Of a DNA stretch of 64,000 nucleotides, positions 22,935 through 47,211 are shown in pieces. This DNA is from an uncultured Aquitalea sp. (GTDB taxonomy: Bacteria; Pseudomonadota; Gammaproteobacteria; Burkholderiales; Chromobacteriaceae), in contig NZ_CAMFLA010000008.1 in NCBI RefSeq assembly GCF_945957525.1, forward strand, positions 62,001 through 126,000, in the 5' to 3' direction. Every line of letters starts with the position of its first letter. The first letter of the stretch is position 1. The notes under the pieces were generated by a model. That model worked only from the letters and a program-made list of their open reading frames with translations. It made no database searches and had not been told where the DNA came from. A program made the position numbers and the translations under genes.

Positions 22935-23837
22935 TTATGCTATTCTCGCGGCTTCTCTTTCCTTAGCTTTCAGTTCGAATCCTGATAGAAACGCACGACG
23001 CAATTCTGATTCTTTCATTACGGCGAGCTGCAATGCAGCATAGAGAGCCCAGCAATCATCTTCAATACTATTAGAATTAATTAACCGCCCTTCTTTAAAA
23101 AGATCGCAACGCAACTTGAAAAGGCGATGTACCTCGGCATTGGCAATATCTGAGCCGAGTTCACCTCTAAAATATGCCTCACGCTTTTGCCCGTTTCTTC
23201 CATTGGCAATAACTGCATTAATAATTGTTTCAAACGCCAACCACATCAATATAAATCGTTCGCCAGGATAAGCTTGACCAAATGCCTTATCCAAAAGAAA
23301 GGCCGCTTCTTCTGGAAGGTGAATCAGTGCCGCGTCTTCAATAGCGGGATCGTTGAAAAGGTTAATTTCTTGTGTGTCGAAAACTGACGCGAATCCCTCA
23401 TCAGACTGAGTCGTAGGCTCTTCATTTTCACCAAACAAAGTGATTTGTATGAGTTCTCGCGCGACGGGGACGCCAAAAACCAATCGAAGTGCATTAGCAA
23501 CGACGATCATCTTCGGCCGGCTGCTTTCTCGCGTGTCTTTATCCGGATACCCAAAGGTTAGCTTTAAGTGGTTGCTATTTTTGAGAATCGGAACTTGAAC
23601 CATTGCTGAGACACATTGACCGTCGGCCAGATAGTGAGTTGCCCAACGCATGCGAAACGCGGAGTCATCCATTGGCGAGAAAAGCGTAACATCGACCGCC
23701 TCAAATCCATTTGTTGCGAGAAGTTTTCTGACCCGTGGTAAATCAACTCTTTGTAAAGAGGAACTCCATACTGTCTCTCTGAAGAATTTCATCCCCTGCT
23801 GACTAAGTTCTTCTGCAATTCTCTGGCGAAAGGTCAT
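22935..23837 (-). CDS. Orphan 300-aa protein, possible HEPN-like C-terminus
   Basis: A complete 300-aa soluble protein I cannot place. The N-terminal 150 residues look alpha/beta. The C-terminal part is helical, with FILMWLAFETIINAVIANG, then EVHRLFKLRCDLFKEGRL. That layout resembles HEPN-type domains of defence proteins such as ApeA-like ones, where a helix ends in an Rx4-6H motif. Here the His position would be Lys (RCDLFK), so RNase activity is doubtful. Codons are AT-richer than the chromosome average. It sits alone in the scar beside selC, so horizontal origin is likely. Confidence 0.7.
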   Translation of the reverse strand: MTFRQRIAEELSQQGMKFFRETVWSSSLQRVDLPRVRKLLATNGFEAVDVTLFSPMDDSAFRMRWATHYLADGQCVSAMVQVPILKNSNHLKLTFGYPDKDTRESSRPKMIVVANALRLVFGVPVARELIQITLFGENEEPTTQSDEGFASVFDTQEINLFNDPAIEDAALIHLPEEAAFLLDKAFGQAYPGERFILMWLAFETIINAVIANGRNGQKREAYFRGELGSDIANAEVHRLFKLRCDLFKEGRLINSNSIEDDCWALYAALQLAVMKESELRRAFLSGFELKAKEREAARIA

Positions 23838-24462: not shown

Positions 24463-24557
24463 TGGCGGAAGAGAATGGGAGTCGAACCCACCCGGGACCG
24501 CTGGCGGCCCCATCCGGTTTTGAAGACCGGCCGCCCCACCGGGGGCGAGTCTCTTCC
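24463..24557 (-). tRNA. selC: tRNA-Sec (UCA)
   Basis: A 95-nt selenocysteine tRNA with encoded CCA. Reading on the minus strand it starts GGAAGAG and ends CTCTTCCGCCA. The anticodon loop is CTTCAAA with anticodon UCA. The 8-bp acceptor stem, long variable arm (GGGGCCGCCAGCGGTCCC) and T loop GGTTCGACTCC match E. coli selC closely. It reads UGA as selenocysteine when delivered by SelB. It lies 45 bases after selB on the same strand, so co-transcription is possible. Confidence 0.97.
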
Positions 24558-24602: not shown

Positions 24603-26492
24603 TCAGGGTGCGGCTTGTTCCTGTTGGCCGAAGAGCAAGGCTTCCCGCAGGAAGTGCCGGTCGCCGGCTCGGCGGGTGAAGCCGCTGCGGTCAAAAAACT
24701 CCAGAATCTGGATGGCCAGTTTGCGTCCTGTGCCGATCTGGTTGCGGAAGCCGGCAGCATCCGCGTAACCGTGGCTTTGCGCCAGCTGACGGACGATGCT
24801 GGCCATGTGTGCCACGGCGGCGGAGTGCAGGTAGCGATCCGGCACAATGGCGCTGACATGCCCCAAGCGCGCGGCTTTTGTCAGCAGCGTTCTGGTTTCC
24901 TGCTCGTCCAGCGCAAGCGCGCTGGCTATATCCCTCACCCACAAGGCATCCTGCTGGCCTGCGAAGCAGGTTTCAACAGCCTGCCAGCGTGTCGATTCTT
25001 CCGTGGTGAAGCTGACGGAATGCTCCGGCAGATGCAGCCAGCCCCGGGTTTGTTTGAGCCGGCCTTCGGCCAACATGTCGTCAACCAGCCGGTTGAGGGT
25101 AGCGTCGGTTTCTTGCGGCAAGGCAAGACGGCGCAAGCGGCCGCGACTGGCGCCAAGTTGATCCGGCTGGTGCTGGTGCAATACGGCCAGTTTTTCCAGC
25201 AAGCGGTCTTGCATGGCGCGCCAGCGTGTCTGCTCGAAGAGCTGTTTGCCGGCCTGGATGAGGCCGGCTTCGTTTAGTTGCTGTTTCAGCTGCGGGTCGG
25301 TCAGTTGCAGCGCCCAGCCCAAGGTGTCGCATTCCAGGGTGTGGTCGGCGCTTTGTAGGCGCAAACGGGCGGCAGCGCCGCTGGCTGCGGCAAGCTGGCG
25401 CAGATAGTCGAGCCGTTCTGGCCGGCGCTTGCCGCGCACAGGCGGGTGCAGCTCTTGCACGGTGGCCGCGCCCAGCGTGTGCCGTGCGCTGGCGTCGCGC
25501 AGAATAATGCGGTCGCCTTCGGCCAACATCAATGGTTGCTCCAGCGCCAGTTCGGCCAGTACGGTTTGGTTGGGAGCAGCGTCTGACGATTCCAGCAGTG
25601 CGATGCGGCCGACGACATGACCTGCGGCGTGATGGACGTGCGCGCTTTGCCAGTGCGACAGGGTGCTCAATGTTTCCAGTTCGACGGTGAGCCGTAGCGA
25701 CGGCGTGGGCGCCGTCTGTGAGAGCAAGCAATCGCCGCGTCTGATAGCGCTTTTTTCCACATCGCCGCTGATGTTAATCGCAAGCCGTTGTCCGGCGCGA
25801 CCTTCGGCGGCGGCGGCATTTTGCGCATGCAGGCCCCGCACCCGCACTGGCCGGTTGTCCGGCGACAGAAAAAGCGTATCGCCAACTGCAACCTTGCCGG
25901 AGAGCGCCGTGCCGGTGACTACCAAGCCGGCGCCGCTGAGGGTAAAGGCGCGGTCGACGGCAAGGCGGAATCGTCCGCCGCGCTGTTCTTGATCATCGCT
26001 CAGCGCCGCCAGATGTTGCCGTAGCCCATCGATGCCGCTCCCCGACAGGCTGTCCACCACAAAACACGGCGCGTCTTGGTGGCGACTGCCTGTCAGCAGG
26101 GCGCGCAGGGCTACCTGCACCTGTTCAAGCTGATCCTGTCCGGCCCGGTCGGCTTTGGTGATGATCAGTGTCAGGCCGGGGATGCCCAGCAGGCGGATGA
26201 TGTCCAGATGCTCGCGGGTTTGCGGCATGGGGCCGTCGTCGGCGGCCACTACCAGCAGGGCATGACGGATGCCGCCCATGCCAGCGAGCATGTTGCCGAG
26301 GAATTTTTCGTGCCCGGGCACGTCGATAAAACCCAGCGTGCGTCCATCGGGCAAGGGCAGGTAGGCATAGCCGAGGTCTATGGTCATGCCGCGCTTTTTT
26401 TCTTCCGGCAGCCGGTCGGCGTTTTGTCCGGTCAGCGCGTGCAGCAGGGTGGTTTTGCCGTGGTCTACATGGCCGGCGGTGGCGAAAATCAT
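24603..26492 (-). CDS. selB: SelB, selenocysteine-specific translation elongation factor
   Basis: A 629-aa GTPase that carries Sec-tRNA to the ribosome at UGA codons marked by a SECIS hairpin. The GTPase starts at once: MIFATAGHVDHGKTTLLHALTG (P loop GHVDHGKT), then DVPGHEKFLGNM (DxPG) and ITKADR (TKAD, in place of NKxD). The C-terminal third holds the winged-helix repeats that bind SECIS RNA. I start at 26492, where the GTPase begins; the ATG at 26528 would overlap the upstream CDF gene. It carries two copies of GTTGGCCGAA (25065, 25518), both read as Leu-Ala-Glu. Confidence 0.97.
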   Translation of the reverse strand: MIFATAGHVDHGKTTLLHALTGQNADRLPEEKKRGMTIDLGYAYLPLPDGRTLGFIDVPGHEKFLGNMLAGMGGIRHALLVVAADDGPMPQTREHLDIIRLLGIPGLTLIITKADRAGQDQLEQVQVALRALLTGSRHQDAPCFVVDSLSGSGIDGLRQHLAALSDDQEQRGGRFRLAVDRAFTLSGAGLVVTGTALSGKVAVGDTLFLSPDNRPVRVRGLHAQNAAAAEGRAGQRLAINISGDVEKSAIRRGDCLLSQTAPTPSLRLTVELETLSTLSHWQSAHVHHAAGHVVGRIALLESSDAAPNQTVLAELALEQPLMLAEGDRIILRDASARHTLGAATVQELHPPVRGKRRPERLDYLRQLAAASGAAARLRLQSADHTLECDTLGWALQLTDPQLKQQLNEAGLIQAGKQLFEQTRWRAMQDRLLEKLAVLHQHQPDQLGASRGRLRRLALPQETDATLNRLVDDMLAEGRLKQTRGWLHLPEHSVSFTTEESTRWQAVETCFAGQQDALWVRDIASALALDEQETRTLLTKAARLGHVSAIVPDRYLHSAAVAHMASIVRQLAQSHGYADAAGFRNQIGTGRKLAIQILEFFDRSGFTRRAGDRHFLREALLFGQQEQAAP

Positions 26493-26496
26493 GGCG

Positions 26497-27420
26497 TCAG
26501 CGCGGCTCTTCCAGACCCACCGGGTCAATGTGGGTCATGACGTCCAGCACGTGGTGGCTGTCCATCACTCGCTTGCGAGCCGCCTCGGCAATATCGTGCG
26601 CCGCAAAGACATTAATGGAACCGTCCACTTCCAGATGCACGTCCACTTGAATGAGGTCGCCCATCTTGCGGGTGCGCAGATCGTGCAGGGAGGCGACACC
26701 GGGCGTGCCCAGCAAGGTTTGCCGAATGGCTTCGCTTTCTTCTTCGTCTGCCGCGCGGTCCATCAGGTCGTGCAGCGAATTCCAGGTAAAGCTCCAGCCC
26801 ATCTTGGTGACCAGCAAACCGACAATCAGCGCGGCAATGGGGTCAAGAATGGGGTAACCCATCAGGTTGCCCACGATGCCGATGGCCACCACCAGCGAGG
26901 AGGCGGCATCGGAACGGGCATGCCATGCGTTGGCCACCAGCATGCTAGAGCGCACGCGCTCGGCGACGGCCAGCATGAAGCGGAATAGACCTTCCTTGGC
27001 CACCAGCGCGCCCAATGCAACCCACAGCGCGATACTGTGCACGGTGGGGATGGAGGCGGGGTCGTGGAATTTCACTGCCGCTGACCACAGCATGCCCACC
27101 CCGACAACCAGCAGCAGCATGCCCAGCACCAGCGAGGCGGCGTTTTCGTAGCGTTGATGGCCGTATTGATGATCGGCGTCGGGCGCTTTGCGGCTTTGAT
27201 AGCCGGCCAGCAGCACGACGAAATCCGCTACCAGGTCCGACAGGGTGTGAATACCGTCGGCGATCAAGGCCTGGGATTTGGCGAAGACGCCGATGACCAC
27301 TTGGGCAATGGACAGCAGCAGATTGACCCAGATGCTGACGATGATGCTGCGGCGCGCGGCTTTGTCCCGCGAGGCGGCATCGACGGTTTCTCGGTGGGCG
27401 GGGTGAGTGTGTGCAGTCAT
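26497..27420 (-). CDS. Cation diffusion facilitator (CDF) metal transporter
   Basis: A 307-aa CDF transporter with six membrane helices and a C-terminal ferredoxin-like metal domain (about residues 215-300, with HDLRTRKMGDLIQVDVHLEVDG). The metal-site residues are His and Asp in helix 2 (ADGIHTLSD) and His and Asp in helix 5 (WHARSDAAS). This HD-HD pattern is usual for zinc-type CDFs; E. coli FieF has DD-HD. It ends four bases before selB, so the two are probably translated from one message. A link to selenium use is not known. I start it at the second ATG, 27420. Confidence 0.92.
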   Translation of the reverse strand: MTAHTHPAHRETVDAASRDKAARRSIIVSIWVNLLLSIAQVVIGVFAKSQALIADGIHTLSDLVADFVVLLAGYQSRKAPDADHQYGHQRYENAASLVLGMLLLVVGVGMLWSAAVKFHDPASIPTVHSIALWVALGALVAKEGLFRFMLAVAERVRSSMLVANAWHARSDAASSLVVAIGIVGNLMGYPILDPIAALIVGLLVTKMGWSFTWNSLHDLMDRAADEEESEAIRQTLLGTPGVASLHDLRTRKMGDLIQVDVHLEVDGSINVFAAHDIAEAARKRVMDSHHVLDVMTHIDPVGLEEPR

Positions 27421-28222: not shown

Positions 28223-29620
28223 CTAGTCGGTATCGCGCAGATTGCGCAGCAGCCCGTCTTCGTCTTCCATGCAACGCATGTCCAGCCACAGTTTGCCGTC
28301 GTTCAGGCGGCCGATGACCGGGCTAGGCCGCCGGCGCAATCTTTCGGCCAGCTTTTCCAGCGTGCCGCCGCGTCCATCCAGCGGCGCAATGGCGATCCCC
28401 CAGCTTGGCAGCCGGTCCACCGGTAAGGAGCCGCTGCCGATTTGCGACAGGCAGGGCGCGCTTTCCAGCTGGTATTCCGCCCCGGCGAAGGCTGCCAGCG
28501 CGGGGAGCAGACGTTCCGCCGTGGCGCGAATGGCGTCTTGCGCGCGGGTCAGGCGGCGCAACGTGGGCAAGTCTTCGGCCAACCTGTCCGGTTGCAGGTA
28601 GAGCCGCAAGGTGGCTTCCAGCGCGGCCAGCGTCATCTTGTCGCAGCGCAGGGCGCGTTTGAGCGGGTGCTTCTGAATTTTGTCTATCCACGCTTTGCGG
28701 CCGATGATGAGGCCGGCTTGCGGGCCGCCCAGCAGCTTGTCGCCGGAGAAGGTGATGAGGTCGATGCCGTCGGCGATCATCTTTTGCGGCATGGGTTCGG
28801 CCGGCAGGCCCCAGGCCGCCAGGTCGGTCAGCGCGCCGGAACCCAGATCGGTGGCGACCGGCAGTCCGCGCGCCCGCGCCAGCGTTGCCAGTTCGTTCTC
28901 GCTCACGCTGTGAGTGAAGCCCTCGATGCTGTAGTTGCTGGTGTGCACTTTCATCAGCAGGGCGGTGTCATCGGTAATGGCTTGCTCGTAGTCGCGCAGG
29001 TGGGTGCGGTTGGTGGCGCCCACTTCCACCAGTTTGCAGCCGGCCTGACGCATTACGTCCGGCATGCGGAAGGCGCCGCCGATTTCCACCAGCTCACCGC
29101 GGGAGACGATCACCTCGCGGCCGGCGGCCACGGTTGACAGTAGAATCAGCACCGCAGCAGCGTTGTTGTTGACCACGCAGGCGGCTTCCGCGCCGGTGAT
29201 CTCGCGCAAGAGTTCGCTGACGGCGTTGTCGCGATGGCCGCGACCGGCATCGTCCACATCGTATTCCAGCGTCACGGCTTCGCGCATTGCCGCTTCCACG
29301 GCGGCAATGGCCTGTTCTGCCATGGGGGCGCGGCCCAGATTGGTGTGCAGTACGGTGCCGGTAAGGTTGTAGACCGGCCGCATTTTCAGGTGCTGGCGCG
29401 CACTGACTTTCTTGCTGGCCAGCCGTATCAGTTGTTCATCGTCCGCCCATGCCGGCAGGGCTTGGTGGTCGCGGATGTGGCGGCGGGCTTCGTCAAGGGT
29501 CTGGCGCACGGCTTCGGTAAGCGCCGCGCTGCCGTGGCGGTCGATGATGCGTTCGACAAGAGGATGGGCAAGCAGCCTGTCCACGGAGGGCAGGCGGCTG
29601 TACAGGGATCTGAGCGGCAT
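28223..29620 (-). CDS. selA: SelA, L-seryl-tRNA(Sec) selenium transferase
   Basis: A 465-aa PLP enzyme that converts Ser-tRNA(Sec) to Sec-tRNA(Sec) using selenophosphate. Family blocks are seen in order: [52 protein letters not shown], and the PLP-lysine motif [13 protein letters not shown]. Length equals that of E. coli SelA (463). Start 29620 ([13 protein letters not shown]) is the family N-terminus. The GTTGGCCGAA word at 28574 encodes Leu-Ala-Glu. selD, for selenophosphate synthesis, is not in the window. Confidence 0.97.
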
Positions 29621-29627
29621 GGAATGT

Positions 29628-29861
29628 TCAGTAGCGAGAGTATCGGTACAGCAGGTATAGCAAAGCCACAAGGAAGGCATTGCCCAGCAGCCAGCTTATC
29701 ACATGACGTAAAAAGCCCAAGCGATTGGCCGGCAAGGGGCAGGGACGGCGGTGCAAGGCGCGATTGAGGCAGGACCAGCCGTCCACGGTGGAGTTGGCGA
29801 TCTGTTCGGGCAAGGCCAGCAGCGGGGCGGAGCCGGTCTTCTCTTCAGGGCGAATCGACAT
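29628..29861 (-). CDS. Small membrane protein upstream of selA
   Basis: A 77-aa protein with one C-terminal membrane helix ([19 protein letters not shown]) and a soluble N-terminus. The ribosome site AAAGGAGG is very strong and well placed, which argues for real expression. It ends seven bases before selA, so the two are likely co-transcribed. I do not recognise a family. A role in selenium metabolism is only a guess from position. Confidence 0.7.
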
Positions 29862-40714: not shown

Positions 40715-41638
40715 TCAGCCTGGGAACAGCAAGGGGTTGAGTCCGCTGCGGAAGAAACCTTCCTCCTCGATGCGGGCATCCAGCGGCAGACTAGCCAGAT
40801 CATCCGCCACCGGGTCGGCCTCGCGGTCCTTGTCCAGGTAGATGATCTTCAGATAACCATGGCAATCACCGCAGGTTTCCGCCCTGACAGCGGCTTCCTT
40901 GTCGTCCAGCGTCCAGTAACCGAGGTCTTTCGACGACTCGCAATTGCTGCAGGTGGAGCGCACCAGATGCCAGTCGCTTTCGCACAGGCTGCAATGCAAG
41001 TAACGCAAACCGCTTTCCGCGCCCTGGCGCACCACGCTGGCTACTGGCGAGCTGCCGCACACCGGGCACAGGTGACGGGCGCTGTCGGGTTCCGCAACCG
41101 CGTGGATGTGCAATTGGCTGGCCAACTGGCTGAAGTACACCGACAAGGCGGCCCAGATGAAGGGCGCGCGATCGGCGCCCACCGCGGCCCACTCGCCGTT
41201 CAGCAGTTGCTGCGCCTGGCGCTCCAGCATCTCGGCGGGCTCTTCGGCCAACAGGTGCGCCACGATGGCGGCTGGGCCTTGCATGCTTTGCCCAAGCTGG
41301 TCGCACAGGTCGCGCAGCATGTGTTGCCAGACCGGGTCGCGCGGCCAGGCCTGCGCGCCCAGCGGCGGCAAGCCATGTTCGGCGCATTGGCGGAAGTAGT
41401 CGTCGCGAGCAGGCAGGGCAACAGTGTGACGCGTTGCCACATCGGCTTGCGCTGTCACCAGCGCTGCGGCAAAACGCAGGAAGGCCTCCATCGGATGGCC
41501 AACCGCCAACGCGCCAAGACGGGCGGCGCGCTGGCGATACAGGCCGCCGGAGGCCGGCAGCAGCAAGGGCGCAATGTCCAGGCTGCTGGCCTGCCGCGTG
41601 TCGCCGAGACTGTCGGCGGGCACGATACGGATGCTCAT
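40715..41638 (-). CDS. fdhE: FdhE, formate dehydrogenase accessory protein
   Basis: A 307-aa cytoplasmic protein needed for the activity of respiratory formate dehydrogenase. It is of the FdhE rubredoxin-like type with zinc/iron CxxC pairs: LCPVCGSSPVAS, YLHCSLCESDWHL, STCSNCESS and ETCGDCHGYL. These four pairs are diagnostic. It overlaps the end of fdnI by four bases. GTTGGCCGAA at 41243 encodes Leu-Ala-Glu. Confidence 0.95.
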   Translation of the reverse strand: MSIRIVPADSLGDTRQASSLDIAPLLLPASGGLYRQRAARLGALAVGHPMEAFLRFAAALVTAQADVATRHTVALPARDDYFRQCAEHGLPPLGAQAWPRDPVWQHMLRDLCDQLGQSMQGPAAIVAHLLAEEPAEMLERQAQQLLNGEWAAVGADRAPFIWAALSVYFSQLASQLHIHAVAEPDSARHLCPVCGSSPVASVVRQGAESGLRYLHCSLCESDWHLVRSTCSNCESSKDLGYWTLDDKEAAVRAETCGDCHGYLKIIYLDKDREADPVADDLASLPLDARIEEEGFFRSGLNPLLFPG

Positions 41639-42264
41639 GGCTTGTTCTTGCCCTCCGTCATTTCACGATACCAACGCGGATGATGCTTCTTTGCCCAGGC
41701 ATGCGTGACCACGCCTTCCACCATCGCGCGAATGGTGCCGCGCACCCACAGGGCCGCATACACGTGCACGATGATGCCGGCGATCAGCGCCAGCGCGCTC
41801 CAGGCATGCAGCAGCAAGGCGACGCGGATCAGCGGGATGGGGAAGTAATAGGCAAAGTAGGGCCGCCAGATGACGATGCCGGTGCAGATGAGCACCAGCA
41901 AGCAGCCGGTCATCATCCAGAACATCGCCTTCTGCCCGCCGTTGTACTTGCCGATATCGCCCACCTCATGACCAGCCAGCACCGTCTTCACGGACTTCAT
42001 CCACTTGATGTCTTCCTTGTCGATGAAGTTGTGATGCCAGTAGCGCAGGAACTGGCGGGCAAAGCCGAGGAACATCAGCACGCCCACGAAGGGATGTACG
42101 ATGCGTGCCAGCTGCGGTGTGCCGAACACGCCCGTCAGCCAGAAGAAGGCCGGGTAGAAGAAGGCCAGGCCGGAAATGGCCAGCAACACGAAACACACAG
42201 CCACAATCCAGTGGTTGATGCGTTCCGCGGCGCTATAGCGCTTTATCAGCTTTTCCTTGCTCAT
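41635..42264 (-). CDS. fdnI: FdnI/FdoI, formate dehydrogenase cytochrome b556 subunit
   Basis: A 209-aa membrane subunit that carries two b-type hemes and passes electrons from the Fe-S subunit to quinone. Four membrane helices are seen; haem-ligand histidines are in [28 protein letters not shown] and [24 protein letters not shown] and FDH-O cannot be told apart from this subunit alone. Both ends overlap the neighbouring genes by four bases. Confidence 0.95.
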
Positions 42265-43133
42265 GCCTTTTCCTCCTCGTCTTCTTCAGCCTTGTTGGGG
42301 CCGACGCCGATGTAGTGGAAGAAGCCGAATAGCACCGATGCGGCCAGACCGATGGTGGAGAGCGGCTTGAGGATGCCTTTCCACAGGTTGACCACCGGGC
42401 TGATTTCCGGGTCCTTCTTCAGCCCGTGATACAGCTCGGGCTGATCGGCGTGGTGCAGCACGTACATCACGTGCGTACCGCCCACCCCAGCCGGATCGTA
42501 CAGACCGGCCTGGTCGAAACCGCGGGTTTTCAGCTCGCCCACGCGCTCGGCGGCGTACTCCTTCATCGCTTCCTTGCTACCGAAGCGGATGGCGCCGGTG
42601 GGGCAGGTTTTCACGCAGGCCGGTTCCTGTCCCACGCTCACTCGGTCGGAACACAAAGTGCACTTGTAGGCCTTGTTGTCCTTGGCGTTGATGCGCGGAA
42701 CATTGAACGGACAGCCCGAGATGCAGTAGCCGCAGCCGATGCAGTGCTCTGACTGGAAGTCCACGATGCCGTTGGCGTACTGGATGATGGCGCCCGGCGA
42801 CGGACAGGCCTTCAGGCAGCCGGGGTCGGCGCAGTGCATGCAGCCGTCCTTGCGGATCAACCATTCCAGCTTGCCGTTCTGCTCCACTTCGCTGTAGCGC
42901 ATCACGGTCCAGCTTTCGGCGGTCAGGTCCGCAGGGTTGTCGTAGACGCCGACATTGCTGCCGATCTCGTCCCGCAGGTCGTTCCATTCCGAACACGCCA
43001 CCTGGCAGGCCTTGCAGCCGATGCAGGTGGTGACGTCGATCAGCTTGGCCACTTCCTCCTTGTGCTCGCGCGCAATGGGAGGCTGGGTGGGGCTGGCGGA
43101 GCGACGCAGGATATCTTGCGATTGCAGTGACAT
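42261..43133 (-). CDS. fdnH: FdnH/FdoH, formate dehydrogenase iron-sulfur subunit
   Basis: A 290-aa electron-transfer subunit with four 4Fe-4S clusters: [45 protein letters not shown], and [21 protein letters not shown] (quoted here in part). A single C-terminal membrane helix ([15 protein letters not shown]) anchors it on the periplasmic side. It is nine bases from fdnG and overlaps fdnI. Confidence 0.96.
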
Positions 43134-43142
43134 GGCCGCTCC

Positions 43143-46100
43143 TTAGGCTTTCTCAACGTTGACAAGGAAGGACTTGAATTCCGGCGTCTGGGTGTTGGCG
43201 TCGCCGACGAACGGCGTCAGCGTATTGGCGATAAAGCCTTTCTTGGCCACGCCCTCATAGCCCCAGTGAATCGGAATGCCCACGTGATGCACTTTCTTGC
43301 CGTTGATGTTGAGCGCCTTGATGCGCTTGGTCACCACGGCCTTGGCCTTGATGTAGCCCCGTTTGGAGGACACCTTGACCATGTCGCCGTGCGCAATGCC
43401 TTTCTCCTGCGCCAACTCCTCGCCGATTTCCACGAACTGTTCCGGCTGCATGATGGCGTTGAGGCGTGCATGCTTGGTCCAGTAGTGGAAGTGCTCGGTC
43501 AGGCGGTAGGTGGTGGCCGCGTACGGGAAGTCCTCGTGCTTGCCCATTTGCTCCTTGTCGCCCTTGAACAGACGGGCGGCCGGATTCGATACCACTTTGG
43601 GATGCAGCGGGTTGGTGCCCAGCGGCGTCTCGAAGGGTTCGTAATGCTCGGGGAAGGGGCCTTCGGCCATCTTGTCCAACGCAAACAGACGCCCCAGACC
43701 TTCAGGCTGCATGATGAACGGCGCCATGGCGGTGCCCGGCGGTTCGTCGGCCTTGAAGTCCGGCACGTCCACGCCGCCCCACTTCTCGCCGTTCCACTTG
43801 ATCAGCGTGCGGGCTTTGTCCCATGGCGTGCCGTCCGGTTTGCAGGAAGCGCGGTTGTACAGGATGCGGCGGTTGGCCGGCCACGCCCAGGCCCAGCCCA
43901 GCGTATTGCCCAGGCCGGAGGGGTCGCTGTTGTCGCGGCGAGCCATCTGGTTGCCGGCCTGCGTCCAGCTGCCGGCGAAGATCCAGCAACCAGAGGCCGT
44001 TGAGCCGTCGGCCTGCAGCAAGGCGAATCCGGGCAGCAGTTCGCCTTTCTTCGCCAAGAACTGGCCGGGGTTTTTCGGATCGGGCAGATCTGCCAGCGCC
44101 TTGCCGTTGAGCTCCTTGGCCAGTTCTTCCGGCTTGGGTTCGTGCGGTTCGCCATAAGCCCAAGACAGGCTGTTGATGGCGTCCGGAAACTTGCCGCCGT
44201 CCTTGGCGTACAGCGCCTTGAGTTTGAGGAAGATGCCGGCGAGGATTTGCGGGTCGGTAATGGCCTGGCCCGGCGGTTCCGCGCCCTTCCAGTGCCATTG
44301 CAGCCAGCGGCCGGAGTTGACGATGGCGCCGTCTTCTTCGGCGAAGCAGGTGGTGGGTAGACGGAAGACTTCGGTCTTGATGTCGGCCGTCTTGACGTCG
44401 TTTTGCTCGCCGTGATTTTTCCAGAAGGTGGAGGTTTCCGTTGCCAGCGGGTCCATGATCACCAGGAATTTCAGCTTGGAGAGCGACTCCACTACCTTGT
44501 TCTTGTTGGGGAAGGAGGCAACCGGATTGAAGCCCTGGCAGAAATAGCCGTTCACCTTGCCCTGGTGCATCAACTCGAAGTACTGCAGGACGTCATAGCC
44601 TTTGTCCCACTTCGGTAGCAGGTCGTAGCCCCAGTTGTTGTCGGCCGTGGCTTTGTCGCCCCACATGGCCTTCATCATCGAGACGAAGAACTTGGGGTAA
44701 TTCTGCCAATAGTTCATCTGGCCTTCGGCCAACGGCTTGCTGGTGTATTTGTCCAGATAGGCCTGCAGCGTCGGCTCTTTTTCCGAGGGCATGGTCATAT
44801 AGCCCGGCAGGCTGGTGGACAGCAGGCCGAGGTCGGTGAGCCCCTGGATGTTGGAGTGTCCGCGCAGGGCGTTGATGCCGCCGCCGGCCATGCCCATATT
44901 GCCCAGTAGCAGCTGGATCATGGCCATGGTGCGGATGTTCTGCGCGCCGATGGAGTGCTGGGTCCAGCCCAGTGCGTACAGGAAAGACGTGGTTTTGTCC
45001 GGCGCGCTGGTTTCCGCTAGGTGCTCGCAGATGGCCTTGAATGCGTCCTTGGGTGTACCGCAGATGGTTTCCACCATTTCCGGCGTATAGCGCGCCACAT
45101 GGGCTTTCAGCAGGTTGATCACACAGCGGGGATCGCTGAGAGTGTCGTCGCGCTTGGCGATGCCCTTTTCATCCAGCTGGTAGGTCCAGGTGGATTTGTC
45201 GTAACTGCGTTTTTCTGCGTTGTAACCGCTAAACAAGCCGTCGTCGAACTTGAAGTCCGGATTCACCAGCAGCGCGGCGTTGGTGTAGGCGAGCGTGTAT
45301 TCCTTGTTGTACTTGCCGGTTTCCAGCAAATAGCGGATCACGCCGGACAGCAAAGTGATGTCCGTGCCGGTGCGAATGGGCGCGTAAAAGTCCGCCACAG
45401 AGGCGGTGCGGGTAAAGCGAGGGTCGATGACCAGCAGCTTGGCTTTATTGCGGGTCTTGGCCTCAATGGCCCAGCGGAACCCTACCGGGTGCGCTTCCGC
45501 CGCGTTGCCGCCCATCACGATGATGAGATTGGCGTTCTTGATGTCGACCCAATGGTTTGTCATGGCACCGCGACCAAATGTTGGGGCAAGACTTGCCACC
45601 GTTGGTCCGTGTCATACACGCGCCTGATTGTCCACAGCCAGCATGCCCAGGCTGCGGGTGAATTTGTGGGTCAGCCAGCCTGCTTCGTTGCTGGAGGCCG
45701 AGGCCGCGAGAAAACCGGTGCTGAGCCAGCGGTTGACGGTAACACCGTCCGCGTTTTTCTCGATGAAGTTGGCGTCGCGGTCTGTTTTGACGTGACGGGC
45801 GATACGATCGAAGGCCTCATCCCAGCTGATGCGTTTCCATTCATTGGAACCGGCTTCGCGCACTTCCGGGTATTTGAGGCGATTGGGACTGTGGATGAAA
45901 TCCACCAGGCCTGCGCCTTTCGGACAGAGCGCGCCGCGGTTTACCGGGTGGTCCGGATCGCCTTCGATGTGGAAAATGTCGGACTTGGCGTTTTTCGCGC
46001 CGTCCCCCAGGCTGTACATCAAAATGCCACAGCCGACCGAACAGTACGGACAGGTATTGCGGGTTTCACTGGCGCGCATCAGCTTGTAGCTGCGCACGTC

Positions 46101-46199
46101 TGCCAGCGCCTTTTCAGGCAGAAAACCCAGAGTCGCAATAGTGGAACCTGCCATACCGCCGGCGCAGAGCTTGAAGAACTGCCGCCGATTGACCTGCAT
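43143..46199 (-). CDS. fdnG: FdnG/FdoG, selenocysteine formate dehydrogenase alpha subunit
   Basis: A 1018-codon molybdopterin enzyme that oxidises formate in the periplasm. The twin-arginine signal is MQVNRRQFFKLCAGG. A 4Fe-4S motif (TCPYCSVGCGILMY) follows. An in-frame TGA at 45612-45614 is codon 196, in the context ARV-U-HGPTVASLAPTFG, the same place as selenocysteine in E. coli FdnG. A SECIS-like hairpin follows at once. Standard gene callers would split it into 43143-45599 and 45612-46199. The sel genes are 16-21 kb away. The subunit is the catalytic core of an FdnGHI complex, with FdhE and FdhD as maturation factors. GTTGGCCGAA at 44724 encodes Leu-Ala-Glu. Confidence 0.97.
45572..45614 (-). 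promoter_or_regulatory. UGA selenocysteine codon and SECIS element
   Basis: Read on the minus strand after the UGA, an outer stem GACCAA/UUGGUC (45607-45602 with 45577-45572) encloses GG, a bulged U, stem GGCA/UGCC with loop AGUCU, then CC. The bulged U, the GG/CC below it and the GU in the loop match the features SelB needs in the E. coli fdhF/fdnG SECIS. Confidence 0.9.
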
Positions 46200-46392: not shown

Positions 46393-47211
46393 ATGACCGA
46401 ACCTGATAAGACATGCTGGCCCGTGGCGAGTTCCGCCTCTCTGCAGCACTGGCGACAAGACACTGCTGTTGCCGCTGCGCAAGACCTGCTAGCCTGCGAA
46501 ACCGGCGTAGCGCTGGTGTACAACGGCATCGCTCATGTGGTGATGATGGCCACGCCGGCTGATTTGGAAGATTTCGCGCTGGGTTTCACCTTGGCCGAAG
46601 GCATTGCCAGGCAGCCGGGGGATATTTTCGATATCGAAATCCGGCCGGTGGCCAGCGGCATCGAGGTGCATGTCGAGTTGGCATCTTCCTGTTTCAGCGC
46701 TTTGAAAGAAAGAAGGCGTCAACTGGCAGGGCGGACGGGCTGTGGTTTGTGCGGCGTCGAGCAACTGGCGGAAGTGTTTCGTCCGCTGCCGGCATTGCCG
46801 TTTACCGCCAGCATCGACATGCGCGCCATCAGCCAGGCGCTGAGCGACCTGCCGCTTCGGCAAACCCTGGCGGAGCAGACCGGTTGCACCCACGCCGCTG
46901 CGTGGCTGACCGCGGGCGGCGAGCTGGCCACCGTGCGCGAGGATGTCGGCCGTCACGTGGCGCTGGACAAGCTGATTGGTTGGCGCAGCAAGGCTGATGC
47001 CGGCGCCGGAGCCGCGCTGGTGACCAGCCGCGCCAGCTATGAAATGGTGCAAAAGGCCGTGGCCGCCGGCATAGAAATACTGGCTGCGGTTTCCGCGCCC
47101 ACGGCGCTGGCGGTGGAGATGGCCGAGCGTTACGGGTTGACGCTGATCGGTTTTGCCCGCCCCGGCCGCGCCAATATTTATACCTGTCCTGAGCGTATTG
47201 ACTTGGGTTGA
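46393..47211 (+). CDS. fdhD: FdhD, formate dehydrogenase sulfurtransferase
   Basis: A 272-aa protein that transfers sulfur to the molybdenum cofactor of formate dehydrogenase, an essential maturation step. Typical blocks are [32 protein letters not shown] with the CxxC pair (C-G-L-C), [26 protein letters not shown] and [14 protein letters not shown] start it at 46393, giving the FdhD family length; the open frame upstream to 46246 overlaps the repeat-rich promoter region. It is divergent from fdnG. Confidence 0.95.

Follow-up and report, generated by a model that had tools for sequence, protein, structure and literature searches.

A TGA codon inside a formate dehydrogenase gene of an Aquitalea genome is almost certainly read as selenocysteine (Sec), as in the E. 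coli enzymes, to judge from its sequence context. The gene lies within the window, i.e., the whole stretch of 64,000 nucleotides analysed here. There is, in our opinion, hardly any doubt that it is a single selenoprotein gene, which would encode the alpha subunit of a periplasmic, membrane-bound formate dehydrogenase and whose UGA codon 196 would be decoded as Sec through SelB and a SECIS hairpin. The observations behind this reading concern the genes, the reading frame, the SECIS and the co-occurrence of such genes with SelB. It should be noted that the biology is already known: this is textbook UGA recoding, without novelty. For the fdnGHI operon, a UGA read as selenocysteine was already described in 1991 (Berg et al., cited in PMC13188914), and fdoG was predicted in 2011 to be the only selenoprotein of Laribacter hongkongensis, which has selABCD (PMC3125206). 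No meaningful difference from the window gene was seen in the L. hongkongensis gene or in the genes of Aquitalea, Chromobacterium and Crenobacter, the latter being 85-94% identical to the window gene and having the same TGA. The practical value of the case is that naive ORF callers split selenoprotein genes of this kind.

The mechanical ORF finder returns two minus-strand ORFs in the same frame, 46199-45612 (195 aa, ending at the TGA) and 45599-43143 (818 aa), with the TGA as their separator. Translation of this codon as selenocysteine yields a single 1018-residue protein that has U at position 196 and is free of further stops. The read-through protein matches TIGR01553, the model of the formate dehydrogenase-N/O alpha subunit, over its full length (residues 2-1017 on profile positions 1-1009) at 1568.9 bits, the curated cut-off being 814.2 bits; as to membership in this family, adjacent beta and gamma subunit genes are present, with TIGR01582 and TIGR01583 matches over their cut-offs. 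The alignment with E. coli FdnG (formate dehydrogenase N; 1kqf_A) runs from end to end and places the TGA-coded residue opposite Sec196 of the structure, and the peptide NQARV-U-HGPTVASLAPTFGRGAMTNHW is a local match to the same protein. The initial annotation had proposed that the TGA joins two open frames into one selenoprotein gene and that the residues around it equal those of E. coli FdnG. The length of the read-through product, its full profile match, the SECIS and the selABCD set bear out the former proposal; as to the latter, both the peptide and the codon number were correct.

Features of the formate dehydrogenase and selenium loci, in window coordinates
Feature	Position	Strand	Evidence
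selC, tRNA-Sec, anticodon UCA	24463..24557	-	ARAGORN; RF01852, 83.3 bits
selB, selenocysteine-specific elongation factor with winged-helix domains	24603..26528	-	TIGR00475, 587.2 bits; Pfam SelB winged-helix domains
selA, selenocysteine synthase	28223..29680	-	TIGR00474, 618.5 bits
fdhE, formate dehydrogenase accessory protein	40715..41638	-	TIGR01562, 314.2 bits
fdoI/fdnI, cytochrome b556 gamma subunit	41635..42264	-	TIGR01583, 215.8 bits, above cut-off
fdoH/fdnH, iron-sulfur beta subunit	42261..43133	-	TIGR01582, 468.6 bits, above cut-off
fdoG/fdnG-type gene, predicted selenocysteine-containing formate dehydrogenase alpha subunit, 1018 aa, twin-arginine (RRQFFK) start	43143..46199	-	translation; TIGR01553; 1kqf_A alignment
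SECIS_3 element for SelB (UGA and downstream hairpin)	45559..45617	-	RF01989; conserved pairs and loop; codon bias; synonymous conservation
UGA codon 196, almost certainly read as selenocysteine	45612..45614	-	translation; Sec position of 1kqf_A; TGA in 109/111 related loci
fdhD, accessory sulfurtransferase, divergent	46393..47211	+	TIGR00129, 256.8 bits; ATG start assumed, longest ORF starts at GTG 46246

The strong evidence for the SECIS is the profile match, the codon bias and the conservation. The Rfam model SECIS_3 (RF01989) matches at 82.5 bits (E 5.1e-18 over the window; gathering score 63), the UGA lying in register, and this is the only match to the model in the whole genome. The hairpin has GG/CC pairs, a bulged U, an inner stem and a G-U-C loop. 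Among 20 distinct SECIS sequences of related genes, the bulged U, the GG/CC pairs and the GU loop are invariant and the apical hairpin pairs are intact in every one, with a single pair that swaps between G-C (in 12) and A-U (in 8). Two positions of the lower stem are non-standard (A-C and A-G), and the same two occur in E. coli, whose FdoG has Sec at the same codon and a SECIS that differs at few bases. The SECIS codons GGA, CCA and CTT are rare, amounting to 1-2% of their kind in the gene, and when 400,000 synonymous recodings were generated from the codon usage of the gene itself, 0.4% formed the strict hairpin. In the stretch from codon +1 to +13, 11 of 13 sites (85%) agree synonymously with E. 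coli fdoG, compared with 53-54% in the rest of the gene. The initial annotation had already described the bulged U, GG/CC clamp and GU loop, and inspection of the hairpin together with the SECIS_3 match upholds that description. RNA folding of the region, which had been suggested there as a check, agrees with these features, but the energy obtained is much like that of shuffled sequences (z -0.76 and -1.44). Because these z-scores are unexceptional and lie within the shuffle range, folding energy is weak evidence for the SECIS, and was discarded as proof of it.

Might the TGA be a lesion? A recent nonsense mutation or a sequencing error would turn the gene into a pseudogene, and the break made by the mechanical ORF finder at the TGA speaks for this. 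A scan of 111 related loci from several families nevertheless found the same TGA at the codon 196 position in 109 of them (Cys occupies the position in the remaining two), and the SECIS stands in register with it; these two facts refute the pseudogene reading. Further against it are the absence of any other lesion across 1018 codons and the complete set of sel genes in the genome, and we regard it as extremely improbable. An equally slight chance is left to a true stop at the UGA with separate translation of the 818-codon downstream ORF, giving a two-chain enzyme. A GTG codon is indeed available a few codons past the UGA; a start there, however, would fall inside the SECIS and would leave the position of the active-site residue in neither chain. 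Moreover, split homologues were not seen among the relatives examined, and related genomes that lack SelB have an uninterrupted gene with Cys at the codon 196 position. The split-enzyme reading was rejected on the position of the GTG, the lost active-site position and the uninterrupted Cys homologues.

The selenoprotein gene is accompanied by a full set of selA, selB, selC and selD in the genome. The presence of selA, selB and selC in the same window, pointed out in the initial annotation, is confirmed by the searches listed in the table. The selD gene, whose absence from the genome had been named there as grounds for refutation, was found by a genome search outside the window, on another contig (G000:C6:12456-13385, 432 bits). 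SelD itself has Cys (GGGCGCK) and no Sec. The mnmH gene (tRNA 2-selenouridine synthase) adjoins selD divergently (L001, 2766-3812 and 2493-1402); selD therefore has a second likely use, and the genome has, by its gene content, the selenouridine trait as well as the Sec trait. On the minus strand, a 300-aa ORF that lies downstream of selC (window 22935-23837) gave no Pfam matches.

The gene would encode the catalytic alpha subunit of an enzyme of the FdnGHI/FdoGHI type, periplasmic and membrane-bound; what follows on decoding, on the metal ligand, on export and on formate oxidation is extrapolated from E. coli. SelD and SelA would make Sec-tRNA, and SelB carrying Sec-tRNA(Sec) would bind the hairpin just 3' of UGA 196, leading to insertion of selenocysteine. 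In the active site, Sec196 would then be a ligand of Mo or W; maturation of the enzyme would presumably fall to FdhE and FdhD, and its export to the twin-arginine signal. The enzyme is predicted to oxidise formate and to pass the electrons into the quinone pool.

The co-occurrence of the TGA-type gene with SelB was examined in 120 relatives. SelB scores above cut-off in 32 of the 33 genomes with a full-length TGA-type FdnG, the Aquitalea genome included, and in none of the 19 genomes among these relatives with a full-length uninterrupted gene. The 33rd genome, G036, seemed an exception at first, with a TGA-type FdnG and SECIS but SelB missed. It is a 310-contig assembly with tRNA-Sec present, selA truncated on another contig, and SelB in pieces split by contig ends, its C-terminal half being found on the tRNA-Sec contig; the gap thus looks like an assembly break. 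This strict pairing is a clean confirmation of a known rule.

In the 12 uninterrupted genes read, from among the 19 genomes, the codon is TGC or TGT, and the SECIS scores in them are below the gathering score. All 12 Cys rows form a separate clade in the tree (support 100/100). Given this clade of their own, the Cys genes did not simply arise by conversion from the Sec gene of close relatives, and an in-place Sec-to-Cys change was rejected for the family's Cys-type FdnG. In this family, several genomes (L038, L121-L129) have a Cys-type FdnG of the separate clade and no SelB, and the Sec type is found in other genomes of the same genus as Cys-type carriers. There is about an even chance that the family's FdnG falls into separate Sec and Cys lineages, the former accompanied by SelB and the latter lacking it, so that lineages of the family may have replaced one complete enzyme by the other instead of changing Sec to Cys by mutation. 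If true, it would say something modest about the evolutionary gain or loss of selenium dependence.

The name fdnG, given in the initial annotation, needs correcting. In the tree, the enteric fdnG and fdoG types group together, apart from the lineage of the window gene, which is therefore co-orthologous to both E. coli genes. Nevertheless, fdoG is the nearer name because of locus order and identity. The window locus, with divergent fdhD followed by G-H-I-fdhE, has the same order as the E. coli fdoG locus (fdhD / fdoGHI-fdhE), and the gene of the E. coli record that best matches the window gene adjoins fdhD, fdoH and fdoI, i.e., the fdo locus. Unlike the window locus, the enteric fdnG-type loci examined have neither fdhD nor fdhE within 3 kb. 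Protein identity is 76% to E. coli FdoG and the enteric FdoG type, versus about 72% to the enteric FdnG type. The gamma subunit is nearer the FdoI-type model, scoring 323.4 with PRK10639 (cytochrome b556 subunit) versus 266.2 with PRK10179 (FDH-N gamma), both below the respective curated cut-offs. The forecast that automatic annotation would likely split the gene or mark it as broken is outdated for the RefSeq pipeline: the TIGR01553 model of NCBI spans the whole read-through protein, and the E. coli homologue stands in RefSeq as a single CDS (labelled fdnG there), so the forecast does not apply generally. A second formate dehydrogenase-like alpha subunit, of the soluble type and uninterrupted by an in-frame stop, is encoded elsewhere in the genome (L007; G000:C12, ~117798-119216), beside a NuoF-like frame.
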